Part shown: in pieces, positions 25,893 through 30,185 of the stretch
How the letters are laid out: each line of letters starts with the position of its first letter
Numbering within the stretch: the stretch's first letter is position 1
Origin: Cyanobium sp. Cruz-8D1
GTDB lineage: Bacteria > Cyanobacteriota > Cyanobacteriia > PCC-6307 > Cyanobiaceae
Reading direction: 5' to 3'
Assembly (NCBI RefSeq): GCF_024345975.1
Contig: NZ_JAGQCD010000003.1
Location: forward strand, 62,001 to 126,000
Length of the DNA: 64,000 bases
Translations under genes and position numbers: made by a program
Notes under the pieces: model-generated
Databases searched by the model: none
Seen by the model: only the letters and a program-made list of their open reading frames with translations
What the model was told of the DNA's origin: nothing

Positions 25893-26258
25893 TCACCCAC
25901 TGCCAGCCGCGTTTGCCATTGGCTGCTGCCGTGCCGCCGCCAGCGCTTCTGCCATCGGTTGCTGATGGCGCAACGGCTCGGGATCCTCTCCCTGCAGCAG
26001 GGTGCCGCAGCGACGGCAGGCATCCGGATGGTGCTCCACCACCTCATCCACCCGCTCGATCAGCAGCAGCTCCGGCCCCGATCCCGGCTGCCCCTGCTGA
26101 GCGCCGCGCTTGGGGCCACGGCCTCTGCGTCGTTCGGGTGGCTTAATGCCAGGCCCGTCACTGGAGGGCGCTTTGGAAGAGTTGCGCGAGCTGCGGCCGT
26201 TCCGCTCACGCAAGTTGACTGGCTCGGTGGCCAAGGCGGTCAGCTGTGATTGGAGGGC
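25893..26258 (-). pseudogene. IS66-family transposase (TnpC) N-terminal remnant
   Basis: The reverse frame from a stop at 26259 to a TGA at 25893 encodes about 120 residues matching the start of IS66 TnpC proteins. It has an Asn/Ser-rich RNGRSSRNSSKAPSSDGPG segment, a basic RRRGRGPKRGAQQGQPG linker, and the zinc-finger region VDEVVEHHPDACRRCGTLL followed by GEDPEPLRHQ. The catalytic DDE domain is absent, so this is a truncated relic. No clear terminal repeats are visible. A possible further scrap of the same gene (PAFGS-like) lies in other frames near 25815-25860. Confidence 0.7.
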
Positions 26259-26327: not shown

Positions 26328-27403
26328 TTGGTCCTGAACCGCCAAGCCACGGCACGCCTGCTCCTGATGGCCGGAGTGGTGGCGCTGTTTTTTGTGGCCT
26401 GGCGGCACTTCAGAATCATCCCGATGCTGGTCCTGGGTCAGCCCCAGTCAGTTGGACTGCTGCAGCGTGACCAGGAAGCTCCCTTCTTTCGTAATCTGGC
26501 AGACAGCACAGATCTGCCATTGATCATCACCTACAGAACGGCTGATTCCTTTGGATTGAAGGATACCCACCAGCTTGAAGCCCTGCGCGATGGACGCATG
26601 GATATCGTGTCCCTCCGCTTCATGCAGAACAACGCCAAGGAACCCGCCTTGGAGGGCCTGGATCTGCCAGGCATGATTCCAGACTTCCAGCAGGCCCGAC
26701 AGGTTGTTGAGGCCTATGGCCCCACGCTGGACCGCTATCTGCAGGACAGCTTCGGAGCCAAGCTGCTTGGACTCTGGAGCTTCGGTCCCCAGGTCATGGT
26801 CTGCCGAAGCCCTTTGGGTGGCCTGAAGGATCTGAAGGGACGCAAGGTGAGGATCGCCAGCCCCGGGCTGGCGCAGTTGATTGCCGCGATTGGCGGAATC
26901 CCAGCAATTCTTCCCTTTGAAGACACCAAGGAAGCCCTGGCCCTTGGTATGGTCGACTGTGCCGTGACCAGTGCCGCCTCCGCTAACTTCGCTGGCTGGA
27001 CAGAGCACACCCACGACTATTTCCCCCTCGCCTTTCAATTTGGCTTCAACGGCTATGCCATCTCCCTGGCGAAGTGGAAGGCGCTACGGCCTGAGGAGCA
27101 GGACCGCCTGGCGCAGGCCTTCAGGGCTTTCAGTGTGAAGCTGTGGCGCTATTCCGAGGACCTGCAACGGGAGTCCGAACGTTGCATTCGGGCGGATCCT
27201 GTCGTCAGCTGCGACCCTCTGCCCTGCGCCATGTCCCGGTCAGCAGCCAGGACGTTCAGCTTCTGCAGCGGCTCTCCCGGGAGGTCGTCCTGCCCAGCTG
27301 GTCCGCCCGCTGTGAAGCGCTTCGCCCGGGCTGTCGTCAAACATGGAACCAGATTGTGGCTCCTGTGACGGGATTTGCCCGTCCGACCCAGCGCATCCGG
27401 TGA
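26328..27403 (+). CDS. TRAP-type (DctP-like) substrate-binding protein with frameshifted C-terminus
   Basis: Solute-binding protein of the DctP class with an uncleaved-looking N-terminal membrane helix (about residues 10-28). Family blocks include LEALRDGRMDIVSL, LKDLKGRKVRIASPG and VDCAVTSAASANFAGW. The raw frame runs to 27368, but its last 60 or so residues are not DctP-like. After a shift near 27183-27200 into another frame, the sequence regains a DctP ending (SREVVLPSWSARC, TWNQIVAP). That frame stops at 27401-27403, overlapping the cyclase ATG. No dctQ or dctM is nearby. The start is TTG 26328 (ATG only inside the helix). Transport or sensing role is undecided. Confidence 0.7.
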
Positions 27404-28866
27404 TGCCCAGTCGCCTTGCCGATGGGAGCCCTGGTGAGCGACCGTCCATCACCCTGCCGCTTCAGAGTGCGGGCCTCCTTTGTGCGTTGATCTTCCTGAT
27501 CAACTCCATCTTTGAAGTGCTGGTCATCAATCATCTGTATGGATCCCAGTATTTCCTCATTGCCCTGCTGCTGGCAGTCCTGTCTCTCTGGGCCTTCCTT
27601 GAGGTAGCGCTGATCGGTCGACGGGCCGTCATGCCACCTCTGCGGATTCTCAAGCTGCTGCTGGCTAGTCAGATCGTCTTGATCCTGATCCGTCATGGCG
27701 GAGACTTTTCTTCCCGTTCAGCGGCTTTGTCCAGTGCTGCGAATCCGGCTCTGTCTCCGCAATTCGGCCTGGCTATCGTGTCCTTGCCGATCTATCTGCT
27801 GCTGTTCCTGGCGATCAGTCGCTGCCTGATCGATGCTTTCTCCTATGCCGAGCGTCGCCGGGCAAAGCAATTGCTGCGCCAGATGACCATTCTCAAGCAG
27901 ACCAAGGCAGAGCTTCAGCCCAGTGAATTGCGGTATCGCTTGATTGCCGACAATGTGGACGATGTGATCTGGACCCTGGATTCCCAGGGACGATTCACCT
28001 TCATCAGCCCATCCGTGAAGACTCTTCTTGGCTATGGGGCCGAGCAGTGGATCGGCAAGCCTCTCAAAAGTCTGCTGGATCCAGCTTCCGCCTTCTCCTT
28101 GGAGAGTGCCCTCAAGCAGTGGCTCAAGCAGCGGCAACCGGTCGACGCCGTGCTGCCGTCCCATCGGGCGGCACTCGAACATGTTCATCAGGATGGCTCC
28201 CTGCTCTGGACTGAGATCACCATGGCGACACTGCGCCAGGAGGATGGGCAGCTGATGGGTTTTGTTGTCGTCACAAGGGATATCCACATTCGTAAGCTCT
28301 ACGAGCGCAATCTCAGCGAGGCACGCGATGCCGCCGAAGAAACCAACAGTGCTCTGATCTCAGCAAACGCGTTGCTACACGGTCGTGCTACGACTGACGG
28401 GCTCACAGGTCTCTTGAATCGCCGTCATTTCGAGGACATTCTGCGGGCGCAGATGAAGACGAGCGCTGAGTATAATGAGAGCCTATCTCTCATGGTGATT
28501 GATGTTGACAGCTTCAAGGATATCAATGACATATCTGGTCACACTCTGGGCGACAGAATTTTGGTTGATGTGTCCAACTTAATTGCGGCCAGTCTGCGTA
28601 AGTCCGATCGACTGGCTCGCTGGGGCGGGGATGAATTCATCATGATGATGCCCCGGGTCCAGGCTGATGAGGCTCTTCAGGTGGCGAACCGTCTGTGCGA
28701 GAGCGTCGCCTGTCACACGTTTCCTGGAGGACGGGTGGTCACGCTGAGCATCGGCGTGGCGGAACGTCGTCCCCACGAGAGCCTGGACCAGTGGTTTGAT
28801 CGCGCCGATGCCGCGCTCTATGCCGTGAAAAAAGCAGGGCGCAATGCCGCCAGGCACAGCGCCTGA
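27403..28866 (+). CDS. membrane PAS-GGDEF diguanylate cyclase
   Basis: A 487-aa enzyme that makes cyclic di-GMP from two GTP. Four hydrophobic segments (about residues 25-140) anchor it. A PAS domain (about 173-300) begins at ELRYRLIADNVDDVIW and a PAC-like segment ends in VVTRDIHIRKLYE. The GGDEF domain begins near TDGLTGLLNRRHF, with the catalytic GGDEF at 408-412 and an intact RxxD inhibitory site at 399-402 (RKSD, five residues before GGDEF). So it should be active and product-inhibited. The ATG at 27403 forms a TGATG overlap with the frame-corrected binding protein. Codon use looks less GC-rich than in flanking genes. Confidence 0.9.
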   Translation: MPSRLADGSPGERPSITLPLQSAGLLCALIFLINSIFEVLVINHLYGSQYFLIALLLAVLSLWAFLEVALIGRRAVMPPLRILKLLLASQIVLILIRHGGDFSSRSAALSSAANPALSPQFGLAIVSLPIYLLLFLAISRCLIDAFSYAERRRAKQLLRQMTILKQTKAELQPSELRYRLIADNVDDVIWTLDSQGRFTFISPSVKTLLGYGAEQWIGKPLKSLLDPASAFSLESALKQWLKQRQPVDAVLPSHRAALEHVHQDGSLLWTEITMATLRQEDGQLMGFVVVTRDIHIRKLYERNLSEARDAAEETNSALISANALLHGRATTDGLTGLLNRRHFEDILRAQMKTSAEYNESLSLMVIDVDSFKDINDISGHTLGDRILVDVSNLIAASLRKSDRLARWGGDEFIMMMPRVQADEALQVANRLCESVACHTFPGGRVVTLSIGVAERRPHESLDQWFDRADAALYAVKKAGRNAARHSA

Positions 28867-29357: not shown

Positions 29358-30131
29358 TCAGGCGGCCAGCGCCGCCACCAGGTCAGGGTTGGCCTGCCAG
29401 CTGTAGGTCCCCTCCTGCACCGCCTCAATGCCCAGCTCGGCCCGCAGCTCCTCCAGGTTCTGCTCCATCCGCTCCTCCCAGATCACCGGAAACAGCGGCC
29501 GGGCCTCGGCGCCGATGTGCAGCCCCTTGCTGATCATGCCGAAGGCGTAACCGGCGGTGCGCGCCTGCTCGGCAGGGGTTTCATGCTCATCGAACGGCTT
29601 GTCGTTGCGGAACCAGTTGAGCAGCAGCGCCATCAGATCGGTGAAGGCCAGGCCCGGATGGGCGAACTGGGCCACGCTGATGCTGATGACACCGAGTTCG
29701 CCGAAATTGTCGAGGCTGAAGCCGCTCACGATGTGATGGATGTCGTGGGTGGCATAGACCCGATAGTTGATGAAATCGGCGTCGCTGTCCAGATTGGCGA
29801 AGAACTCGGGTTTGGGGAAGAAATTGATGTCGTAACCCATCGTCTCCAGCACCGTGGCGTAGGTGTGCCCCAGGGTTCCCTTCGGCAGGGCCTTGAGGGC
29901 CGTGGCGTCGTAGGGGCCGCTGAGCCGCCGCTGCTCAATCAGGGCCACCGCGGCCGGGTCCCGCAGCAGCAACGCCCGGCAGACCTGCATCGGCCGGGAC
30001 TGGCGCAGCCGATGGGAGAGCTGGAAGACGTTGTTGGCCGACGCACCGGCTCCGGCGGCCAGATCGGCGAGTTCCAGAAACGCGTGGATGTTCTCCTCAG
30101 TGGCGATCCGATCGAGGTAGCGAAATCCCAT
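29358..30131 (-). CDS. Coq4-family protein
   Basis: A 257-aa soluble protein with the Coq4 metal-binding signature H-D-x-x-H-(x11)-E: THDIHHIVSG and the glutamate of NFGELG. In ubiquinone-making organisms Coq4 acts in head-group modification, recently described as C1 oxidative decarboxylation; cyanobacteria make plastoquinone, so the role here is inferred. ATG at 30131 (MGFRYLDRI) is preferred; the frame can extend to GTG 30158. It is the last gene of the operon desaturase-yjbQ-PCD-coq4, with a 54-bp gap before it. Confidence 0.85.
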   Translation of the reverse strand: MGFRYLDRIATEENIHAFLELADLAAGAGASANNVFQLSHRLRQSRPMQVCRALLLRDPAAVALIEQRRLSGPYDATALKALPKGTLGHTYATVLETMGYDINFFPKPEFFANLDSDADFINYRVYATHDIHHIVSGFSLDNFGELGVISISVAQFAHPGLAFTDLMALLLNWFRNDKPFDEHETPAEQARTAGYAFGMISKGLHIGAEARPLFPVIWEERMEQNLEELRAELGIEAVQEGTYSWQANPDLVAALAA

Positions 30132-30185
30132 GGCTGCGGCGCGGGGCGGAGGGTGCACCCAGGGAAACTAGACGTGACGCCAGCC

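Follow-up and report, generated by a model that had tools for sequence, protein, structure and literature searches.

A TRAP-type solute-binding protein paired with a four-helix membrane domain: a candidate sensory module with exchangeable outputs in picocyanobacteria and other bacteria

Binding proteins that activate receptors are already known. In Vibrio cholerae and Sinorhizobium meliloti, the solute-binding protein NspS acts on the membrane c-di-GMP enzyme MbaA; according to PMC9993111, NspS is PotD-like, and MbaA is a GGDEF-EAL protein with a periplasmic domain between two membrane segments. In the GlnH-GlnX-PknG system of Corynebacterium glutamicum, the binding protein GlnH, a lipoprotein, signals via GlnX, a protein that has four membrane segments and, in the periplasm, two domains of some 156 and 153 residues, without a fused output enzyme. 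The same source (PMC9769921) describes XylFII-LytS, a histidine kinase controlled by a binding protein, in which XylFII, of a sugar-binding family, docks on the periplasmic four-helix domain of LytS. In BctC-BctE of Bordetella, a two-component kinase receives its signal from BctC, a binding protein of the TTT family that also serves a secondary transporter, BctBA, which is present and in use (PMC5812351). According to a review (PMC9602780), receptor-activating binding proteins act on the ligand-binding domains of their receptors.

The locus considered here lies in a stretch of 64,000 nucleotides of Cyanobium sp. Cruz-8D1, called the window (G000:C32:62001-126000; L0xx are labels of loci and G0xx of genomes, G000 being the window genome, 3.97 Mb and rated 100% complete). 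As in NspS-MbaA, a binding-protein gene stands beside the gene of a membrane c-di-GMP enzyme, in the window and in related loci. The binding protein is here of the DctP type, and the enzyme has four helices with short outside loops, predicted at about 7 and 11 residues; the window protein is predicted to have no sizeable periplasmic receptor domain of the NspS-MbaA type. The receptor is likewise unlike GlnX, and GlnH is of another family than DctP; XylFII-LytS differs in both its binding-protein family and its docking domain, and BctC, with its working transporter, is unlike the transporter-less window DctP. In the known pairs the binding proteins come from other families, and those receptors whose structure is described have sizeable periplasmic domains; the DctP pair is therefore regarded as a variant, differing from the compared systems in its binding-protein family and, as far as the model predicts, in a receptor without a sizeable periplasmic domain. 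Among the matches listed by word matching in open-licence PubMed Central, none dealt with a transporter-less TRAP binding protein that is coupled to a cyclase or kinase, or with the four-helix membrane domain.

The DctP and cyclase genes of the window

In the list of open reading frames, the raw DctP frame of the window extends from 26328 to 27368 and starts with TTG. Its main part (26328..27182, + strand) encodes a DctP-type (TRAP) solute-binding protein with 48-86% identity to six same-genus relatives, and the Pfam DctP match (1.5e-18) covers residues 78-285 of the raw frame. Within 27183..27200 (+) lies a one-base frame slip, the window being one base shorter than L040-L042, and the second forward frame (27197..27403, +) gives a C-terminus as in five intact same-genus relatives (profile match 1.3e-20), with the stop TGA at 27401-27403. 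This stop overlaps the cyclase ATG (27403-27405) in a TGATG (27401..27405, +), which is kept in two loci with an intact DctP, L041 and L042. Both the slip and the overlap had been claimed in an earlier note on this DNA, and the alignment of DctP in both frames bears them out, the second frame restoring the family C-terminus.

Compared with L042, the 68 tail codons of the window DctP comprise 45 identical, 11 synonymous and 12 non-synonymous ones, and the body codons 201, 54 and 29, respectively; between the intact L042 and the intact L040 the same tail has 58, 3 and 7. Clear decay of the tail is not apparent from these codons, which suggests that the slip is recent or a base-call error. The strain may accordingly be losing the module, or the base may simply be wrong; intact relatives of the pair exist. 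A programmed frameshift is not favoured, because the five intact orthologues of the same genus use a single frame throughout. Among named organisms, the window DctP is closest to that of Vulcanococcus limneticus (89% identity, 284 columns) and that of Synechococcus sp. GreenBA-s.

The partner gene (27403..28866, +) encodes a membrane PAS-GGDEF protein of 487 residues, delimited by its reading frame, Pfam and a five-row alignment. It consists of the following elements: (i) a four-helix membrane domain common to the partners (27451..27846, +), with model helices at residues 17-42, 50-74, 78-108 and 120-176; (ii) a PAS domain (27931..28284, +; residues 177-294, Pfam 1.1e-15); (iii) a GGDEF domain (28387..28845, +; residues 329-481, Pfam 2.1e-41). 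The GGDEF motif (residues 408-412; 28624..28638, +) is invariant in the five rows, as are R399 and D402 of an RxxD (28597..28608, +), a motif which we take to be the product-inhibition site and which probably serves as such here. With this intact motif, the window partner is a predicted diguanylate cyclase.

The first 177 residues of the partner are modelled as four helices (mean pLDDT 79.9, moderate), the fourth of which extends into the linker. If the enzyme is inside, the two ends of the domain would lie inside as well, and the outer loops, counted between model helix ends, would have the two short lengths given above; on this presumed topology a sizeable periplasmic domain would be absent. 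The 18-row alignment of the domain contains 13 invariant columns, and the invariant Q49 is situated at the end of the first outer loop. The Pfam matches and the model agree with the earlier note, which had seen a DctP-like protein adjoining a PAS-GGDEF protein with a four-helix membrane part and with GGDEF at 408-412.

Two neighbouring genes of the window may be mentioned. Just upstream of the pair, a 113-residue frame (25896-26234, -) matches DUF6444 (4.7e-7), which we take to be part of an IS66-type transposase, and is likely a mobile-element remnant. Downstream, a Coq4-like protein is encoded at 29361-30158 (-; match 8.1e-17); Coq4 belongs to ubiquinone synthesis, a pathway that cyanobacteria are not known to have.

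A TRAP binding protein and the question of its permease

The intact DctP of L042 scores over the cut-off of NCBIfam TRAP_S1, and below that of TIGR00787. Its model (pLDDT 90.8) matches PDB chains in Foldseek with a best value of 2.3e-22; 497 chains lie at E 0.001 or better, and the best 50 of the 497 are TRAP-type binding proteins. By profile match and fold, DctP is a TRAP solute-binding protein.

The closest relatives found outside the module are DctPs of plasmid TRAP transporters, in operons of hydantoin or ureide type, with up to 43% identity. Relatives occur in 48 plasmid records, all below 60% identity, and the regions of nine were opened, eight of them annotated and the ninth (H7) unannotated, with its reading frames listed alone. 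In 8/8 annotated regions DctP is followed by the small and large TRAP permeases, and seven of the eight contain an Asp/Glu-type or hydantoin racemase; dihydropyrimidinase, amidase, allantoinase and hydroxyisourate hydrolase genes also occur among them. When 22 pair DctPs and 15 transporter-type rows are placed in one tree, the former group as a single clade on one side of a branch with support 100/100. Several transporter rows stand on very long branches, and the outgroup is not clean. Residues R96, R174 and N240 (L042 numbering) are among those invariant in pair and transporter DctPs alike, from which it follows that the pair DctP probably keeps ligand binding. That the ligand is hydantoin- or ureide-like is a guess, and a rather doubtful one.

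The pair DctPs differ from these cousins at the N-terminus as well as in the genes that follow. The earlier note had drawn attention to an N-terminal membrane helix, and such a helix is found at approximately 26352..26402 (+) of the window and at residues 2-27 of the L042 model, with Arg, Phe and Trp invariant in 19/19 pair DctPs. The six closest transporter DctPs are without this pattern and have ordinary-looking signal peptides. Signal peptides are seldom conserved at single positions, and the conservation of such positions in the helix therefore points to a retained membrane tether. A scan for A-x-A cleavage sites gave possible triples in all 19 pair DctPs and did not separate the pair and transporter sets, so that tethering is not proven.

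A first alternative to a sensing role is that DctP is an ordinary uptake protein, with its permease encoded elsewhere and the adjoining enzyme only regulating uptake. The TRAP fold is kept, and the more distant plasmid relatives are transporters. The window genome, however, with its single DctP, gave no match to DctM or DctQ over the whole 3.97 Mb; the lack of dctQ and dctM nearby, remarked in the earlier note, extends to the entire genome, no dctQM pair was found elsewhere in it, and the partners that would make the window DctP part of a TRAP transporter were not found. DctM lies over the cut-off in 17/24 genomes tested. Ten of the 24 are cyanobacterial carriers (G000, G032, G016, G020, G017, G015, G035 and the genomes of L041, L042 and L048): DctM is without a match in six, and each of the other four has a single partial match, which passes the Pfam cut-off and covers 69-100 of 413 positions. 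The planctomycete (L055) has one match of 94 positions. The tested beta- and gammaproteobacterial and spirochaete carriers have near-complete DctM genes elsewhere in the genome, so a transport role is conceivable in those. Taken for the pair as a whole, the uptake reading is improbable, also in view of the variation of the output type while the pair stays together.

Two genomes of the same genus with DctM, G027 and G010, have just a weak DctP match (about 2e-5), and neither the DctP of L028 nor the membrane domain found a match in them. Their loci L029 (G027) and L030 (G010) represent a conventional TRAP system with DctQ and DctM matches, unusual beside relatives without any.

The pair and its outputs in other genomes

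A close DctP is present in 7/42 same-genus genomes. The membrane-domain profile finds eight, namely the same seven and G007, and the intact membrane domain is limited to the seven. A full-length cyclase adjoins DctP in five same-genus genomes besides the window. In G020, DctP is in two pieces around an inserted transposase-like gene, and the partner is the membrane domain joined to a histidine kinase (L025, G020:C1, about 3070.3-3071.6 kb). In G007, where DctP was not found, membrane-domain fragments lie beside a glyceraldehyde-3-phosphate dehydrogenase-like gene, as in G017 (identity read from translations); at L094 (G007:C1, 455-1130) the decayed membrane-domain gene lies at a site that seems to correspond to that of the intact G017 cluster.

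A scan of named genomes with a five-row cyanobacterial DctP alignment gave 20 loci, spanning cyanobacteria, beta- and gammaproteobacteria, one spirochaete and one planctomycete. The hosts are Synechococcus, Vulcanococcus, uncultured cyanobacteria, Chromatiaceae, another gammaproteobacterium, Candidatus Thiosymbion (two), Rhodoferax, other betaproteobacteria, one Spirochaetaceae and one Planctomycetia bin; the loci come mostly from metagenome bins, so that single organism names may be wrong. Five of the 20 lie on contigs that agree in length with contigs of G015, G016, G017, G032 and G035, and are thus not independent of the genus count. The membrane domain is encoded by the next same-strand gene in 18/20 loci; in L052 it starts and then the contig ends, and in L047 it is deleted, with an intact pair in L050 of the same bin. 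In L047 the partner minus its membrane domain continues from about 11030 as PAS-GGDEF, and the L050 pair is of the kinase type.

The scan query was DctP alone and thus did not select for the neighbouring gene. In the surroundings of 15 of the 20 loci, compared by single-linkage BLAST (4/15 with fewer than 800 bases upstream), just DctP and the partner recur in 15/15, and a response regulator in 5/15; the remaining clusters of at least three loci are, by their coordinates, the same genes in other frames or a neighbouring kinase or regulator. The pairing of DctP with its partner exceeds chance. Homologous pairs neighbour each other in other genomes, as the earlier note had proposed looking for, and neither of the two observations that the note had named as speaking against its reading was made. 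Its sensing pair stands as far as a binding protein beside a four-helix protein is concerned, while the constant partner is the membrane domain and not the cyclase.

Outputs were assigned by Pfam for the partners in the window, L044, L048, L049, L050, L051, L053, L055, L057 and L059, and by own profiles and reading of translations for the others. PAS and GGDEF form the output of the window, L040-L043, L045, L056 and L058; L044 and, alike, L046 have GGDEF with a weak PAS match. A HisKA kinase is found in L048, L051 and L055, a PAS-kinase in L049 and L054, a kinase plus receiver in L057 and, with PAS, in L050, a HisKA_2 kinase in L053 and PAS-PAS-GGDEF-EAL in L059. At least five output types (GGDEF, GGDEF-EAL, HisKA kinase, kinase-receiver hybrid and HisKA_2 kinase) can thus be counted. 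The c-di-GMP output foreseen in the earlier note holds for the window with its GGDEF domain; other loci have kinases or GGDEF-EAL, and c-di-GMP is therefore just one output.

The change from kinase to c-di-GMP enzyme or back needs 4 steps on the DctP tree and 4 on the membrane-domain tree, and the five output classes need 6 and 7, respectively. Distances in the two trees are correlated (r 0.755, 0/5000 shuffles; r 0.713, 0/5000, for 15 thinned rows). Many forks of the membrane-domain tree are weak, and the agreement could in part reflect common descent. L047 and L052, with an incomplete domain, were left out of the membrane-domain tree, and five near-copies out of the thinned correlation. As judged from the sequences, the sensor part stays together while the output changes.

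In four cyanobacterial loci of the GGDEF type (L043, L045, L056, L058), a stand-alone kinase lies upstream on the opposite strand, with a response regulator nearby; some of these genes were also checked with Pfam. The profile of these four kinases gives 199, 187 and 153 bits for the fused kinases of L025, L048 and L055, and 20-29 bits for other partner kinases among the matches listed; these scores indicate that the stand-alone kinases near some pairs are of the same sort as kinases fused into other partners. A second PAS-GGDEF-like gene is located downstream of the pair in L043 (5828-6862, +), L056 (5099-6067, +) and L058 (10874-11842, +). In the two translations read (L024, L028) the motif of this second gene is altered, and its product is possibly a c-di-GMP receptor or an inactive partner. 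By own profiles, the L040-L042 stretches contain neither the stand-alone kinase nor the second GGDEF-like gene, and the stand-alone-kinase profile finds nothing in the window.

A second alternative is that the four-helix domain senses by itself, for instance the membrane state, a quinone or a small molecule, and that DctP is a helper or inhibitor. Conserved polar residues are located in or near the helices (e.g. E38, E67, Q90, R97), and there are several small membrane sensor domains that need no binding protein. Against this stand the residues R96, R174 and N240, shared by DctP and its transporter cousins, and the agreement of the DctP and membrane-domain trees, which leave the alternative about as unlikely as uptake.

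The distribution of the pair is scattered. In the phylum scan with the five-row DctP alignment, 25/386 genomes matched, with a close DctP just in G000 and G020 and a best value of 2e-11 among the other 23. Around a Rhodoferax carrier, the centre genome was the sole match in samples of 369 (class) and 399 (family) genomes. The non-cyanobacterial pair DctPs have 45-53% identity to L042. This distribution fits transfer between lineages. Among viral contigs, 144 stretches matched a search pattern and none encoded a relative; phage records gave no match, nor did plasmids to two versions of the membrane domain. The patchy occurrence and the transposase-like remnant upstream of the window pair would suit a mere passenger of horizontal transfer, whose genes travel together without working together; yet no other gene recurs in all loci, and the membrane domain remains beside DctP when outputs are exchanged, so this reading is very unlikely.

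The membrane domain itself has no name in the databases searched. Segments of the window, L053 and L055 scanned alone gave no family over cut-off in Pfam, including MASE, and the profile of the domain matched no PDB chain at E up to 10. The best PDB match of the model in Foldseek has E 0.17, and VIA-align returned generic four-helix bundles, many of them designed proteins; XylFII-LytS and TorS-TorT chains are among these, though no better than the range of unrelated rows. The least probable alternative derives the domain from DctQ, the small permease subunit with four helices, since both are four-helix membrane proteins directly after DctP and the cousins have the small permease in that place. 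It is very unlikely, as profile support (hhalign, 0.3% probability against 30 DctQ sequences, controls 100%) and any PDB match below E 0.17 are lacking, and the domain is not detectably a DctQ.

The proposed sensory module

On the best reading, a single recruitment joined a TRAP binding protein to an unnamed receptor domain whose outputs can be exchanged, the output in the window being c-di-GMP; the interpretation of the earlier note is, overall, supported. It is probable that the two genes make up one sensory module, with DctP as the ligand-binding part, the four-helix domain as the receiver and an exchangeable output. Its occurrence in widely differing bacteria, joined to one enzyme part or another, gives the pair the look of a chemical sensor that can be reused.

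For tethering, contact, ligand gating and direction of effect, which we infer, the following sequence is proposed. The transporter-less DctP would be held by its N-terminal helix at the outer face of the inner membrane and would bind a small solute. The resulting shape change would be passed to the four-helix membrane domain of the partner; since the partner is predicted to be without a sizeable periplasmic domain, DctP would serve as the ligand-binding part in trans. The signal would run along the long fourth helix to PAS and GGDEF and change c-di-GMP synthesis. In the related loci, the same DctP/four-helix unit would drive kinases or a GGDEF-EAL protein. The module is impaired in some places, with the membrane domain lost in L047, DctP split in G020 and frame-slipped in the window.

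A more specific version can be put forward only tentatively, with its chances a little short of even. It states that the pair is a new kind of receptor, in which a helix-tethered DctP recruited from TRAP transporters is the only ligand part of a four-helix domain, the signal passes at or within the membrane, and the module has spread between phyla with at least five outputs; the ligand may be a ureide resembling hydantoin or allantoin.

If true, such a receptor, lacking a ligand-binding domain of its own and fitted with one output or another, would amount to a simple plug-in sensor made by nature. The pair makes testable how part of a transporter becomes part of a signalling system, with one recruitment, one new membrane partner and several outputs, and it suggests a role for a membrane domain that has no name. 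Freshwater picocyanobacteria would gain a candidate external cue for c-di-GMP.
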